Assembly (NCBI RefSeq): GCF_000787815.1 | Contig: NZ_BBPO01000044.1 | Location: 1 to 32,958 of the forward strand | Source of the DNA: Streptacidiphilus neutrinimicus | GTDB taxonomy: Bacteria; Actinomycetota; Actinomycetes; Streptomycetales; Streptomycetaceae | Length of the DNA: 32,958 bases | Reading direction: 5' to 3' | Shown here: positions 4,910 through 10,996 of the stretch, one piece after another | Layout of the letters: every line of letters begins with the position of its first letter | Numbering within the stretch: position 1 is the stretch's first letter | Translations under genes and position numbers: made by a program | Notes under the pieces: model-generated | Told to the model about the DNA's origin: nothing | The model's input: the letters and a program-made list of their open reading frames with translations, nothing else | The model's database searches: none

Positions 4910-6649
4910 CTACCGCGTGGCCACCGTCCGGGTGTCCCGGCCCGACCGCAGCAGCGTTCCAGGGACCGCGCCGGTCAGCTTGCCCTCGCGGACCGTCTCG
5001 ACGCCGTTGACCCGCACCGCGATCACGCCCTCGGGGCGCGCGTCCAGACGCGGGCTCTCGCCGGGGAGGTCGTGGACCAGCGTCGCCGGGCCGGCGTCGA
5101 TCGTCTCCGGGTCGAACAGAACCAGGTCGGCATGGTTGCCGACGGCGACCGTGCCCCGGCCGCGCAGGCCGAACAGCTCCGCCGGGTCGGCCGTCAGCAT
5201 CCGCACGGCCTGCTCCACCGGCACCAGCCGACGCCGCCGCAGGCAGTCGCCGAGGAAGCGGGTGGTGTACGGCGCGCCGCACATCCGGTCCAGGTGGGCC
5301 CCTGCGTCCGAGCCTCCCAGCAGGACGTCCTCGTGCTGCCAGGTCTCCTGGCGCAGCCGCCAGCTGGCGGGGTCGTTGTCGGTCGGCATCGGCCACAGCA
5401 CGGTCCGCAGCTCGTCGTTGACGCAGATCTCGACCAGGGTCGCGAAGGGGTCCTGACCCCGTTCGGCGGCGATGTCGCGGACGACCCGGCCGGTCAACCC
5501 GGCGTTCGCCGCGGAGTAGGTGTCGCCGATGACGTAACGGGAGAAGTCGGCGAGGCGGCGGAAGACGCCCGCCTCGGGGCTGTCGGCGCGGCGCAGCATC
5601 TCCTCGCGCACCTCCGGGCGCCGCAGTCGCTCGATGCGCTCCGGCACCGGGAGCCCGAGGACCGGTCCCCAGCCGGGGATCAGGTTGAGCGCGCAGAAGG
5701 TGCCGAGGCTCATGTTCATCGGCGTGAGGATCGGCATCGTCAGCGCGACGATCCGGCCGCCCGCAGCGCGGGCCCGCTCGGAGGCGAGGAGCTGGCGCGG
5801 GACGCGGCCGGGGACGGCGGCGTCGACCGTCAGCACGTTCCAGTTGAGCGGGCGTCCGGCGACCGCGCTCATCTGCACCAGCAGGTCGATCTCCTCGTCC
5901 GCGAAGGTGTCCAGGCACCCGGCGACGATCGCCTCGATCTGCGTGCCCGGCGCCTCGCCGACCGCGCGGCACAGGGCGAGCAGTTCCTCGCTCCCCGCGT
6001 GCCGGGAGGCGACGGGCTGCCCGTCCCCGTCGGAGTGCGTCGAGGACTGGGTGGTGGACAGGCCCCACGCGCCTTCCGCCATGGCCTGCCTGAGCAGCGC
6101 GACCATCTGCGCCAACTGCTCCGGCGTAGGCTGTCCGCCGACGGCGTCCGGGCCCATGACGTGCCGCCGCAGCGCGCAGTGGCCCACCATGAAGCCCGCG
6201 TTGACCGCGATCCGCCCCTCCAGCGCGCCGAGGTACTCGCCGAAGCTCGACCAGCTCCAGGGCACACCCTTCTCGAGCGCGGCGAGCGACATGCCCTCGA
6301 CCCGGGCCATCATCCGCCGCGTGTAGTCGGCGTCCCCGGGCCGCGCCGGGTTGAGCGGCGCGAGGGTGAACCCGCAGTTGCCTCCGGCGACGGTGGTGAC
6401 GCCGTGGCCGAGCGAGGGCGTGGCGAACGGGTCCCAGAACAGTTGGGCGTCGTAGTGGGTGTGCGGGTCGACGAACCCGGGGGTGAGCATGAGCCCGGTC
6501 GCGTCCTCCGTCTGGACCGCGGGCTCGCCGCAGGCGCCGGCGGCCGCGATGACGGCGACCTTCCCGTCCTTGATGCCGACGTCCGCCGCGCGCGCCGGGG
6601 CGCCGGTGCCGTCGACGAGGGTCGCTCCCTTGATGAGATGGTCGAGCAT
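4910..6649 (-). CDS. N-acyl-D-amino-acid deacylase family amidohydrolase
   Basis: This metal-dependent amidohydrolase of 579 residues belongs to the Amidohydro_3/D-aminoacylase family, which hydrolyses N-acyl amides or related C-N bonds. The HxH metal motif is H63 and H65 in GFVDPHTHYDAQ. The family cysteine, a metal ligand in D-aminoacylases, is C92 in AGGNCGF. The late catalytic Asp is D448 in GGSDAGAHLD. The end of the protein, VAVGNHADLVLFDPETI, is the usual C-terminal beta-sandwich signature. ATG 6649 follows a GAAGGGG site. It begins 23 bp after the stop of the luciferase-like gene, so the two form one operon behind the operator at 7813-7831. The true substrate is unknown; in this oxidoreductase cluster it need not be a D-amino acid derivative. 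Confidence 0.88.
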   Translation of the reverse strand: MLDHLIKGATLVDGTGAPARAADVGIKDGKVAVIAAAGACGEPAVQTEDATGLMLTPGFVDPHTHYDAQLFWDPFATPSLGHGVTTVAGGNCGFTLAPLNPARPGDADYTRRMMARVEGMSLAALEKGVPWSWSSFGEYLGALEGRIAVNAGFMVGHCALRRHVMGPDAVGGQPTPEQLAQMVALLRQAMAEGAWGLSTTQSSTHSDGDGQPVASRHAGSEELLALCRAVGEAPGTQIEAIVAGCLDTFADEEIDLLVQMSAVAGRPLNWNVLTVDAAVPGRVPRQLLASERARAAGGRIVALTMPILTPMNMSLGTFCALNLIPGWGPVLGLPVPERIERLRRPEVREEMLRRADSPEAGVFRRLADFSRYVIGDTYSAANAGLTGRVVRDIAAERGQDPFATLVEICVNDELRTVLWPMPTDNDPASWRLRQETWQHEDVLLGGSDAGAHLDRMCGAPYTTRFLGDCLRRRRLVPVEQAVRMLTADPAELFGLRGRGTVAVGNHADLVLFDPETIDAGPATLVHDLPGESPRLDARPEGVIAVRVNGVETVREGKLTGAVPGTLLRSGRDTRTVATR

Positions 6650-6672: not shown

Positions 6673-7797
6673 TCAGGAAGCCGCCTGCCGGAAACGGGTG
6701 GTCCGGTGCACCGGATCGGTGTCGATCTTCGGGATGACGTGCTCGCCGATCAGGCGGATCGTCTGCGCCGTCTGCTCCGGCGAGAGTCCGACCGGCAGCC
6801 CGAAGACCAACTGGTCCGCCCCCGCGGACTCCCAGCGCTTGCACTGCCGCAGCACGTCGTCCGGGTCGCCGCAGATCAGCAGTTCCTCGGCGACGAGGAG
6901 GTCGATCAGCTCCTCGCTGTACTCCGGCAGCAGCTCGGGCCACTCCGGGATGCCCTCCGGCCGCGGGAAGGTGTCGTGGTAGCGGAAGAGCAGCGACTGG
7001 AGGTAGTTGAGCCCGCCCCGGGCGGCCAGGCGCCGGGCCTCCTCGCGCGTCTCCGCGCAGACGGCGGTGGAGGTGACCATCACGTTGTCGTTGACGAAGG
7101 CCCCGACCGGCTCGGCCTCGCCGACCGCGTGCTTGTAGCTCTCGACGACCCACTCCATGTCGGAGACCTTCTGCACGCTGAAGCCGAGCACGCCGAGGCC
7201 CTTGCGCGCGGCCATCTCGTAGGAGGCCGGGCTGCCCGCCGCGTACCACATGGCCGGGTGCGCCTTGCCGTACGGCTTGGGCAGCACCTTGCGCGGCGGC
7301 AGCGACCAGTGCTTGCCGGAGAAGCCCGGATACTCGTCGTGGAGCCACATTCTCGGGAACTCGCCGATGGTCTCCTCCCACATCTCCTTCGTGGCGTTCA
7401 TGTCCGTCACGTCGGGGAGGAAGCCGAGGATCTCGTGGCTGCCGGCGCCGCGGCCGGTGCCGAACTCGAAGCGGCCGCCGGAGAGATGGTCCAGCATGGC
7501 GACGCGTTCGGCGACCTTGACCGGGTGGTTGACCCGGGGCAGCGGGTTGAAGATGCCGGAGCCGACGTGGATGCGCTCGGTGGCGTGGGCGAGGTAGCCG
7601 ATGGCCACGTCGTTGGCGGAGAGGTGGGAGTACTCCTCCAGGAAGTGGTGCTCGGTGAGCCAGGCGTACTTGAAGCCCGCCCGGTCGGCCCGGACGACGT
7701 AGTCCATCTCCTCCATCAGGGCCTTGTGCTCCGCCTCCGGGTCGGCCTGGGAGCGACTTCCGGGCACGTAGCCCTGGATGAAGACACCGAACTCCAT
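6673..7797 (-). CDS. LLM-class flavin-dependent oxidoreductase (bacterial luciferase-like)
   Basis: This TIM-barrel oxidoreductase of 374 residues belongs to the luciferase-like superfamily, which uses FMN or F420. Family features are the N-terminal strand MEFGVFIQGY, the segment WLTEHHFLEEYS (residues ~46-57), the substrate/flavin region GIFNPLPRVNHPVKVAERVAMLDHLSGGRFEFGTGRG (residues ~80-116) and the C-terminal GADQLVFGLP. This HHF-type subgroup usually contains FMN-dependent monooxygenases; the cofactor is inferred. ATG 7797 has a weak GGTGA site and lies only 15 bp from the operator dyad at 7813-7831, so the transcript leader must be short. It is the first gene of a two-gene operon with the D-aminoacylase-like enzyme. 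Confidence 0.9.
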   Translation of the reverse strand: MEFGVFIQGYVPGSRSQADPEAEHKALMEEMDYVVRADRAGFKYAWLTEHHFLEEYSHLSANDVAIGYLAHATERIHVGSGIFNPLPRVNHPVKVAERVAMLDHLSGGRFEFGTGRGAGSHEILGFLPDVTDMNATKEMWEETIGEFPRMWLHDEYPGFSGKHWSLPPRKVLPKPYGKAHPAMWYAAGSPASYEMAARKGLGVLGFSVQKVSDMEWVVESYKHAVGEAEPVGAFVNDNVMVTSTAVCAETREEARRLAARGGLNYLQSLLFRYHDTFPRPEGIPEWPELLPEYSEELIDLLVAEELLICGDPDDVLRQCKRWESAGADQLVFGLPVGLSPEQTAQTIRLIGEHVIPKIDTDPVHRTTRFRQAAS

Positions 7798-7812: not shown

Positions 7813-7831
7813 ATCTGACGATCCATCAGAT
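7813..7831. promoter_or_regulatory. Operator dyad 1 of the catabolic cluster
   Basis: ATCTGACGATCCATCAGAT has perfect 6-bp outer arms (ATCTGA/TCAGAT) and lies 15 bp before the luciferase-like gene start. Its reverse complement matches 17 of 19 positions at 8746-8764, and 16 of 19 positions match directly at 10978-10996. The size and symmetry fit a TetR-type repressor site; no such regulator gene is in the window. Confidence 0.8.
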
Positions 7832-7873
7832 TGCGAGTCCGACTTTCGCACCCGCGCCCACAGGGGTCAAGGG

Positions 7874-8710
7874 TCAGCCGATGGAGACGCCGCTCATCCA
7901 GCCGCCGTCGGCGACCAGCGGCTGGCCGGTGATGTAGGACGAGTCCGCCGAGGTCAGGAAGAGCGCCAGCCGTGCCATCTCCTCCGGGCGGCCGATGCGG
8001 CCGAGCGGCACCGCCTTGCCGTACAGCTCCGCCGTGGCCGCCGCGATCGCGGCGGCGTCCTCCGGGCTCAGCGCGGGCGCGCCGTCCACGCCCGCGAAGG
8101 CGTTCGCCGGATCGGACATCGGCGTGTCCACCGCCCCCGGGCAGATCGCGTTGACGCGGATGCCCTTGGGCGCCAGTTCCAGCGCGGCCACCCGCGTCAT
8201 CGCGACGATGGCGCCCTTGGTCGCCGCGTACGAGGTCAGCAGCGCCATGCCGGTCAGCGCGGTGTAGGAGGCGGTGTTGACGATCGTCCCGCCGCCCGCG
8301 GCCTCGATCGCGGGCGCGGCGGCGCGCATGCCGAGGAAGCAACCCACCTGGTTGACCCGGACCACCGCCAGGTACTCGTCCAACGGCGTGCTCACCAGCT
8401 CGTTGAAGCGCAGGATGCCGGCGTTGTTGAGCAGGCCGTCGAGCTTGCCGAACGCGGAGACCGCCGTCTCCACGGCCGTCATCCAGTCCTCCTCGCAGCC
8501 GACGTCGAGGTGCTGGTAGCGGACCCGGTCCCCGCCGAGCTCGAGCTGGAGCTGCTTGGCCAGCGCCTCGCCCAGGTCGTCCAGGACGTCGCCGAGCACT
8601 ACCTGCGCGCCCTCGGCGGCGAAGAGGCGGGCCTCCGCCTCGCCCTGGCCGCGGGCGGCGCCGGTGATCAGGACGGTGCGGCCGGCCAGTCGGCCACCGG
8701 TCAAGGTCAT
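7874..8710 (-). CDS. Short-chain dehydrogenase/reductase (SDR)
   Basis: This classical SDR of 278 residues oxidises or reduces an alcohol/ketone with NAD(P). The cofactor motif is TGAARGQG (residues 16-23), the structural motif NNAG is at 95-98, and the catalytic set is Ser148, Tyr161 and Lys165 (YAATK). The C-terminal GRIGRPEEMA...YITGQPLVADGG pattern is typical of 3-oxoacyl-ACP-reductase and hydroxysteroid-dehydrogenase-like members. An acidic residue at the end of strand 2 (GDVLDD) favours NAD over NADP. I chose ATG 8710, which has GAGGGGAG upstream, over a GTG at 8728. It forms its own transcription unit, with an operator at 8746-8764 and a separate operator between it and the next gene. 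Confidence 0.9.
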   Translation of the reverse strand: MTLTGGRLAGRTVLITGAARGQGEAEARLFAAEGAQVVLGDVLDDLGEALAKQLQLELGGDRVRYQHLDVGCEEDWMTAVETAVSAFGKLDGLLNNAGILRFNELVSTPLDEYLAVVRVNQVGCFLGMRAAAPAIEAAGGGTIVNTASYTALTGMALLTSYAATKGAIVAMTRVAALELAPKGIRVNAICPGAVDTPMSDPANAFAGVDGAPALSPEDAAAIAAATAELYGKAVPLGRIGRPEEMARLALFLTSADSSYITGQPLVADGGWMSGVSIG

Positions 8711-8745
8711 GGTGCGGGCTCCCCTCACGCAAGCGGATCCATCTG

Positions 8746-8764
8746 ATCTGATGGATCGTCAGTT
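8746..8764. promoter_or_regulatory. Operator dyad 2 of the catabolic cluster
   Basis: ATCTGATGGATCGTCAGTT is the reverse complement of the site at 7813-7831 except for two bases at one end. It lies 35 bp before the SDR start, in the 93-bp gap after the F420-type luciferase-like gene, so the SDR appears to have its own regulated promoter. Confidence 0.8.
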
Positions 8765-8803
8765 TCTTTGGTGAACCCGCACAAGGGAAGACCTCGCACG
8801 ACC

Positions 8804-9724
8804 TCACACCAGCGGCAGCACGTCCCTCGCGACCAGCTCCAGCTGCGCCAGGTACTCCTGCACGTCCCGGCCGCGCGGCCGCAGCTGCAGATGGGTGACG
8901 CCGACCGCCACGTAGCGGCGCAGCAGCTCGGCCAACTGTTCGGGCTTGCCCGCGACGGAGCGCCGCCCGATCTCCCAGCCCGGCTCCCCGACGTACAGCG
9001 GCGGGGCGATCGCGTTGACGACGAACCCGTCCGCCGACCGGCCCTCCCGTTCCCGCACCGAGCGGATCAGCTCCAGCTGGGCGGGCAGCGTCTCCAGGCT
9101 GTCGCCCTGGGAGAGCCAGCCCTCGGCGTGCGCGGCCGCGCGCCGCACGGCCGCGACCGAGGAGCCGCCCACCCAGATCGGCGGACGCGGCGTCTGCGCC
9201 GGACGCGGGCTCAGCGCGAGCTCCCGGAACGGGAAACGCGGGCCCGGGTGCTCCGGGTACTCCTCCCGCAGCGCGACGTCCAGGGCCGCGATGGTCTCGG
9301 TGAGGATCTCGCCGCGCCGGTGGAAGTCGACGCCGAGCGTCTCGAACTCCTCCTGCACGTGCCCGGCCCCGACGCCGAGGACCAGCCGTCCGCCGCTCAG
9401 CAGGTCGAGCGTCGCGTACTGCTTGGCGCTCAGCAGCGGATGCCGCAGCGGTGCGACGGCGACGTGCGAGAGCAGCCTGGTCCGCGAGGTCAGCCCGGCC
9501 AGGTAGCCGAGCGTGGAGACGGGGTCGTACCAGGTCGCGCCCATCGGGCCGGCCAGCCGGCGCGGGATGGCGACGTGGTCGCAGCAGGCCACGTAGGCGT
9601 AGCCGAGCCGGTCGGCGGCCTGCGCGACGGCGGTCAGCTCGACCGGGCCCGCCCGCCCCTCCCAGGGCTCGACGAACATCGTGCTCTGGGCCTGGACGGG
9701 CAGCTGGATCCCGAACTCAGCCAC
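8804..9724 (-). CDS. F420-dependent LLM-class oxidoreductase (TIGR03619-like)
   Basis: This luciferase-like TIM-barrel protein of 306 residues probably uses reduced F420, because it resembles the TIGR03619 group common in actinobacteria. Recognisable blocks are GIQLPVQ at the N-terminus, YAYVACCDHVAIPRR (residues ~43-57), KQYATLDLLSGGRLVLGVGAGHVQEEFETLGVDF (residues ~101-134) and PPIWVGGSSVAAVRRAA (residues ~180-196). The start is GTG 9724, inside the end of the upstream gene (8-bp overlap) with GAGGGGG just before, so it is translationally coupled to the amidohydrolase. The substrate is unknown. The two luciferase-like enzymes of the cluster belong to different subgroups and probably act at different steps. 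Confidence 0.89.
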   Translation of the reverse strand: MAEFGIQLPVQAQSTMFVEPWEGRAGPVELTAVAQAADRLGYAYVACCDHVAIPRRLAGPMGATWYDPVSTLGYLAGLTSRTRLLSHVAVAPLRHPLLSAKQYATLDLLSGGRLVLGVGAGHVQEEFETLGVDFHRRGEILTETIAALDVALREEYPEHPGPRFPFRELALSPRPAQTPRPPIWVGGSSVAAVRRAAAHAEGWLSQGDSLETLPAQLELIRSVREREGRSADGFVVNAIAPPLYVGEPGWEIGRRSVAGKPEQLAELLRRYVAVGVTHLQLRPRGRDVQEYLAQLELVARDVLPLV

Positions 9725-10958
9725 CGTGCGTCACCCCCTCGGCCCCGGCCCACAGCCCCTGCGGCGTCAGGCCCAGCAGCTCGATCGCGTTGCCGCGCAC
9801 CAACTGCTCGACCACGGGGGCCTCCAGGTGGCCCATCTGCTCCTCGGCGACCTCGCGGCTGCGCGGCCAGGTGGAGTCGGAGTGGGGGTAGTCCGTCTCG
9901 TACAGGACGTTGGCGGCGCCGATGGCGTCGAGGTTGCGCAGGCCGTGCGGGTCGTCGAAGAAGCAGCCGTAGACGTGCCCGGCGAACAGCTCGCTGGGAC
10001 GGGTCAGCACCTTGTCGGCGACGCCGCCCCAGGCGCGGTTCTCCTCCCAGACCACGTCGGCGCGGCCCAGGATGTAGGGGATCCAGCCGATCTGCCCCTC
10101 GGCGTACATGATCTTCAGCCCGGGGAAGCGGTCGAACGTGCCGCTCATCAGCCAGTCGACCATGGAGAAGCAGCAGTTGGCGAAGGTGATGGTGGAGCCG
10201 ACCGCCGGCGGGGCGTCCGCCGAGGTGGAGGGCATCCGCGAGGAGCTGCCGATGTGCATGGCGATGACCGTCCCGGTCTCCTCGCAGGCGCGCAGGAACG
10301 GGTCCCAGGCGTCGGTGTGGACGCTGGGCAGCCCCAGGTGCGGGGGTATCTCGCTGAAGCAGACGGCCCGCACGCCGCGCGCGGCGTTGCGCCGCACCTC
10401 GGCGGCGGCCAGCTCCGCGTCCCACAGCGGCACGATCCCGAGCGGGATCATCCGGCCCCGGGCGGCCGGGCCGCACCACTCCTCGACCATCCAGTCGTTG
10501 TAGGCGCGGACGCAGAGCAGTCCCAGCTCGTGGTCCTCGGCCTCGGTGAACGTCTGGCCGCAGAACCGCGGGAAGGTCGGGAAGCAGAGCGCCGACTGGA
10601 CGTGGTTGACGTCCATGTCGGCGAGCCGCTCGGGTATGGAGAACGAGCCGGGGCGCATCTGCTCGTAGGTGATCGCCTCCAGCCGCACCTCCTCGCGGGG
10701 GTAGCCGACGGCGGTGTCGAGACGGGTGAGCGGGCGGCGCAGATCCTCGTAGACCCACCAGTCGGCGAGCGGTCCGCCGCTACCCGGCTCGCCCATCCTG
10801 GGCGCGAACCGGCCGCCGACGAAGGTCATCTCGGCGAGCGGGGCCCGGACGATGCGCGGGCCGAGCTCGCGGTACCGGGCGGGCAGCCGGTCCTGCCACA
10901 CGTGCGGCGGCTCGACGGTGTGGTCGTCCACCGAAATGATCCAGGGGAAGCTCTCCAT
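9717..10958 (-). CDS. Amidohydrolase 2 family (ACMSD-like) metal-dependent hydrolase or decarboxylase
   Basis: The 413-residue protein is of the PF04909 type, the family of aminocarboxymuconate-semialdehyde decarboxylase and related aromatic-acid decarboxylases and hydrolases. A D-x-H-like metal motif lies near the N-terminus (SVDDHTVEPP, residues 9-18), a conserved His is in VIAMHIGSSS, and the late acidic metal/catalytic residue is in VLYETDYPHSDSTWP, a strong signature of this family. ATG 10958 has only a weak ribosome site and lies 19 bp from the operator at 10978-10996. Its stop overlaps the next luciferase-like gene, so these two are one operon. It may cleave a ring-opened or acidic intermediate; that is inference. 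Confidence 0.9.
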   Translation of the reverse strand: MESFPWIISVDDHTVEPPHVWQDRLPARYRELGPRIVRAPLAEMTFVGGRFAPRMGEPGSGGPLADWWVYEDLRRPLTRLDTAVGYPREEVRLEAITYEQMRPGSFSIPERLADMDVNHVQSALCFPTFPRFCGQTFTEAEDHELGLLCVRAYNDWMVEEWCGPAARGRMIPLGIVPLWDAELAAAEVRRNAARGVRAVCFSEIPPHLGLPSVHTDAWDPFLRACEETGTVIAMHIGSSSRMPSTSADAPPAVGSTITFANCCFSMVDWLMSGTFDRFPGLKIMYAEGQIGWIPYILGRADVVWEENRAWGGVADKVLTRPSELFAGHVYGCFFDDPHGLRNLDAIGAANVLYETDYPHSDSTWPRSREVAEEQMGHLEAPVVEQLVRGNAIELLGLTPQGLWAGAEGVTHGG

Positions 10959-10977
10959 GCCGGTCAGGCTACGCGTA

Positions 10978-10996
10978 ATCTGACGATCCGTCAGGA
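10978..10996. promoter_or_regulatory. Operator dyad 3 of the catabolic cluster
   Basis: ATCTGACGATCCGTCAGGA lies 19 bp upstream of the amidohydrolase start. It matches the first operator in 16 of 19 bases, and its core TGACG/CGTCA is symmetric. Confidence 0.8.

Follow-up and report, generated by a model that had tools for sequence, protein, structure and literature searches.

The window analysed here is a stretch of 32,958 nucleotides from Streptacidiphilus neutrinimicus (NCBI RefSeq assembly GCF_000787815.1, contig NZ_BBPO01000044.1), and the elements in question are three near-identical 19-bp dyads that lie directly before the transcription units of a cluster of putative catabolic genes on its minus strand. 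The first of these genes encodes a metal-dependent hydrolase of the Amidohydro_2 family (9717..10958, 413 amino acids; PF04909, E 2.4e-42), and its end is overlapped by the gene for LLM2 (LLM, luciferase-like monooxygenase), an F420-dependent luciferase-like oxidoreductase of the TIGR03619 family (8804..9724; TIGR03619 above cut-off, PF00296). A short-chain dehydrogenase/reductase (SDR) oxidoreductase of 278 amino acids follows (7874..8710; PF13561/PF00106), the start of which, at ATG 8710, was picked by its Shine-Dalgarno sequence GAGGGGA. Next comes LLM1, a luciferase-like monooxygenase of 374 amino acids (6673..7797; PF00296, E 6.6e-50), and 23 bp past its end begins the gene for an Amidohydro_3 family hydrolase (4910..6649; PF07969, E 9.4e-56), which is presumed to share its transcript. 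Because of these gene overlaps and short gaps, the layout suggests three transcripts: amidohydrolase-LLM2, SDR and LLM1-Amidohydro_3.

Allowing three mismatches, the dyads were found at 7813-7831 (plus strand), 8746-8764 (best on the minus strand) and 10978-10996 (plus strand), with none expected from 100 shuffles; as putative operators of minus-strand genes, they share the core CTGAYG-N3-CRTCAG. They precede the starts of LLM1 (7797), SDR (ATG 8710) and the amidohydrolase (10958) by 15, 35 and 19 bp, respectively, just as had been described in the original prediction, a note made from the sequence alone. That prediction also had one site as the reverse complement of another at 17 of 19 positions; the pairing is real, but the figure needs correcting, as site 8746-8764 read on its other strand agrees with site 7813-7831 at 18 of 19 positions, with a single mismatch. 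Site 10978-10996 agrees with 7813-7831 at 16 of 19.

The exact core, CTGAYGNNNCRTCAG, has 34 copies in the 8.4-Mb genome, compared with one for the reversed control, so that the regulon, originally called small, would be a larger one of which the cluster in the window forms one arm. Twenty-five of the 34 copies lie outside genes, as called on these loci by a rough purpose-made gene caller, compared with 17% of positions picked at random there (p 7e-13). Nine are coding as called, or eight if an over-long start is corrected at locus L068, where the site at 10904 counts as coding only through that start, since the amidohydrolase homology match begins 60 bp after it. As for random copies inside coding regions, which the prediction had named as evidence against itself, nine is above the approximately one expected from the control. 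A stretch of 37 kb on contig C179 (120.9-157.5 kb) is especially rich in sites, which there precede genes for Amidohydro_2, acyl-CoA dehydrogenase (ACAD), thiolase-like, acyl-CoA ligase and ADP-forming acyl-CoA synthetase type proteins, and ChsH2-like OB-fold genes lie near them. Elsewhere in the genome, sites stand before a cholesterol oxidase gene, before a paired thiolase and P450, before ACAD genes, and before one LLM and one SDR gene.

Conservation was read in genomes of the same family, counting as a site any match with at most one mismatch within the 15-bp core. The amidohydrolase has matches at E <= 1e-60 in 40 of 81 family genomes, several of them merely a paralogue of 40-59% identity; promoters were read for the top 30, which include the own genome and are 81-100% identical (G018 and the fragmentary G354 left out). 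All 30 carry a site, which begins 36-87 bp upstream of the point where the match starts; its core is exact in 29 and has one mismatch in the other. There are none in the 36.7 kb of coding sequence of these orthologues. Within the sites the six-base arms are 97-100% constant, compared with 57-77% for the three centre bases and 37-70% for the upstream flank. LLM1 likewise has matches in 40 of 81 genomes, and of the 30 loci read, 29 carry a site no more than 120 bp away, with an exact core in 25 and one core mismatch in four; the exception is G321. Many of these promoters contain a second site.

Such pairs recur: many of the regulated promoters carry two operators approximately 50-62 bp apart (upstream regions L276-L298; L069 15752/15813; L070 7393/7454), and paired-operator distances cluster near 50, 60, 71 and 105 bp. 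Helical phasing of the paired operators was considered and dropped, because the 93 pairs no more than 130 bp apart represent just five homologous groups, two of them large, and so offer no independent test.

At the amidohydrolase-LLM2 unit (operator 10978..10996, minus strand) the left half of the dyad, CTGACG on the minus strand, doubles as the -35 box, 17 bp before a -10 box, TAGCCT (10966..10971, minus strand), that stands 7 nucleotides before the ATG. The arrangement CTGACG-N17-TAnnnT recurs in 29 of the 30 orthologous promoters, with an 18-bp spacer in the remaining one. Since the -10 box ends 6-7 nucleotides before the ATG in the orthologues read (promoter region 10959-10971 in the window), the amidohydrolase transcript is predicted to be leaderless. 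A general rule that the operator doubles as the -35 box was rejected: the overlap was seen at one of 28 own-genome site orientations tested, and is absent at the other two operators of the window.

The candidate regulator is encoded on contig C179 (147906-148553) amid the site-rich catabolic genes, and no other protein in the genome belongs to PF19352 (TetR_C_38). It combines the domains TetR_N (PF00440, E 5e-06) and PF19352 (E 1.1e-69), which place it in the TetR family, and is 100% identical to proteins from three Streptacidiphilus species; its predicted structure (mean pLDDT 90) is nearly all helix. Across 296 genomes of the class, with a match to PF19352 at E <= 1e-9 counted as positive (49 genomes, 44 without family f13, whose five genomes are described below and were excluded from the final statistics), the median number of sites per genome is 15 with PF19352 (n = 44) and 1 without (n = 247), giving an area under the curve (AUC) of 0.94, or 0.95 with f13 included. 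The gene is present in all 28 genomes of the window's family in this sample, 27 of which come from one genus.

In genus g2, both the TetR gene and the amidohydrolase orthologue were located in nine genomes; the distance between them is 12.9-23.7 kb in every case, and in eight of the nine that contig also holds SDR and LLM1. One such locus, L328, holds in order Amidohydro_3-like, LLM1, SDR, LLM2, Amidohydro_2, acyl-CoA ligase, thiolase-like, OB-fold and enoyl-CoA-hydratase-like genes, two others and the TetR gene, and a large gene that looks unrelated is interposed as well; these names derive from homologue searches with the amidohydrolase, LLM1 and SDR, and for the remainder from position and the starts of the sequences rather than family searches.

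Taken together, these observations support what had been proposed from the sequence, namely operators common to the three transcription units, with a regulator, most likely TetR-type, that is encoded outside the window. With a probability of about 0.8, the dyads are the operators of the genome's only PF19352 TetR, controlling a large regulon through which a hydrophobic compound, probably alicyclic or sterol/terpenoid-like, would be degraded in a coenzyme A (CoA)-dependent way. By analogy with other members of the TetR family, one dimer would bind CTGAYG-N3-CRTCAG and repress dispersed CoA-dependent catabolic operons. Bound in front of the amidohydrolase gene, it would occupy the -35 box together with the spacer and thereby exclude RNA polymerase, and a pathway intermediate, perhaps an acyl-CoA, would bind the repressor and release it from DNA. 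A sterol/terpenoid-like substrate is our guess because of the cholesterol oxidase, ChsH2-like and thiolase-like genes. On this proposal, a TetR subfamily that has apparently escaped study would gain a predicted operator, a list of predicted targets and a test bed, and scattered genes of the LLM, amidohydrolase, SDR, ACAD and thiolase-like types would come together in a single predicted pathway.

Several points weigh against this assignment. The comparison behind the choice of regulator covered PF19352 proteins, and in this genome the candidate's gene and the window sit on different contigs. The E <= 1e-9 line was set after the table had been seen; at E <= 1e-3 the matching genomes number 62, of which the 13 that fall short of the line count among the 247 negatives. 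Eight of these negatives hold 6-11 sites, two positive genomes (G022, G031) hold 0-1, and five of the 28 genomes of the window's family have just 1-4 exact sites (G234, G277 and G243, with loci L123, L124 and L125; G153; G285). Since the TetR gene is kept in these five, the protein may have a second role as well. Some site-bearing neighbours are not obviously catabolic (sortase E, NlpC/P60, an amino-acid permease, a tyrosine phosphatase, a terpene synthase), and the overlap with a -35 box is confined as described above. Finally, the SDR operator (8746..8764) is poorly conserved. SDR has matches in 29 of 81 genomes and all 29 loci were read, but nine have a site, five of them with the exact core. 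As these divide into eight of 14 in the own genus and one of 15 elsewhere, the operator looks like a later gain, or one that was lost elsewhere. The three operators are therefore unequally conserved, and the absence of sites from related genomes that keep the genes, which the original prediction had named as contrary evidence, is seen mostly before SDR.

Among the alternatives, the one that survives best, though unlikely, is that the operators belong to a different regulator, another TetR or some other dimeric protein, and that PF19352 is a co-inherited neighbour. This view would accommodate the persistence of the TetR gene where sites are few and the restriction of the comparison to PF19352. 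It would also accommodate the lack of a site at the TetR gene itself in the window's own family (f1; none at six loci read), which is at the same time a point against our assignment. The same search, which the original prediction had suggested as a check, gave a different answer in families f12, f14 and f18: all nine loci read, out of 14 positive genomes in these families, have a site at -30 to +23 of the assigned start, where 0.02 is expected per locus. These sites were accepted at up to two mismatches in 17 (exact core in two, one core mismatch in seven); none was found at four f13 loci or at two in other families read. A co-inherited neighbour is also at odds with the number of sites, which tracks PF19352 in families other than the window's own (median 10, n = 16, against 1; AUC 0.91 without f13), and with the segment TS.ATFYQYF, invariant across an alignment of 18 members, although two of these come from genomes with 0-1 sites.

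The placement of sites in family f13 differs from that in the genome studied here. All five genomes sampled hold 171-276 exact CTGAYGNNNCRTCAG sites. In three genomes (L333-L347 in G012, G035; L239-L268; L348-L362), 58 sites were read: 27 are non-coding, of which 14 lie between convergent genes, and at 16 of the 58 a neighbouring gene ends on the site's own TGA. When genes were called on 3-kb loci, 18 of 30 G012 sites fell in coding sequence; on a longer stretch, six of seven sites are non-coding, mostly at 3′ ends. It is a rather doubtful idea that f13 has recruited the same protein-site pair for a task at gene 3′ ends throughout the chromosome, where the TGA acts as stop codon; the pair might, for instance, form a protein roadblock or an insulator that separates convergent genes. 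In the window's family, on this reading, it remains an ordinary catabolic operator. A nucleoid role for these sites, like that of SlmA, was rejected in view of the mixed coding placement, a spacing that did not differ from random over the first 100 of 193 sites, and the sharing of two of seven distinct alignable positions between G012 and G035.

Returning to the proposed catabolic operators, it is also very improbable that the protein is an activator or dual regulator at some promoters, rather than a plain repressor. Such a function would suit the varied operator distances and the two sites in many LLM1 promoters, but the site covering the -35 box in 29 of 30 amidohydrolase promoters fits repression, and most investigated TetR family members are repressors (PMC3511530). 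It is barely credible that the dyads arose by chance or are palindromes of a general kind, such as hairpins or terminator-like elements, without any regulator: the 3′-end sites of f13 that supply a stop codon would suit it, but it is contradicted by the 34 copies against one in the control, the fixed arms around a free centre, the placement before starts and the footprints in 30 of 30 amidohydrolase and 29 of 30 LLM1 promoters of the window's family.

The closest functional likeness is to KstR (Rv3574) of mycobacteria, and we suggest that the regulon works like that of KstR but is not the KstR regulon, because the site is different. Judged by the description of KstR (PMC1995591), both systems would have one TetR-type repressor and a short palindrome before many genes of lipid or sterol-type catabolism; the KstR motif was found at 16 and 31 other instances in intergenic regions of two genomes, which resembles the 34 sites here, and it overlaps promoter elements. 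The same report gives the KstR site as TnnAACnnGTTnnA, compared with CTGAYGNNNCRTCAG here, so that these are not KstR operators, and describes KstR as repressing its own gene, whereas the candidate lacks an own site in its family (PMC1995591). Whereas KstR controls sterol and lipid catabolism, such a role may or may not apply here: sites do lie at genes for cholesterol oxidase, ACAD and thiolase-like proteins, the substrate itself being a guess. The protein family probably differs as well, the candidate belonging to PF19352.

The nearest solved fold to the predicted structure is that of EthR from Mycobacterium tuberculosis, a TetR protein that controls one monooxygenase gene (TM 0.78/0.87, Foldseek E 6e-07). 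A close relationship is not indicated: the two proteins are 18% identical in the fold match, and their sequence match (E 1.7e-05) is confined to residues 15-77. The candidate has 3516 relatives at E <= 1e-20, and the names of the 120 listed are generic (TetR or AcrR family regulator, hypothetical) or missing. No publication was found under the name or accession PF19352/TetR_C_38, an earlier description in the subscription literature being possible, and among the matches listed no title or beginning of an abstract pointed to this regulator or site.

One 17-mer, TCTGACGAGCCATCAGT, is identical on two contigs of the genome (C90 and C140; L046 1150 and L054 4011). One copy precedes a gene with a histidine-kinase-ATPase domain, and the other lies near a gene of glycosyl hydrolase family 15.

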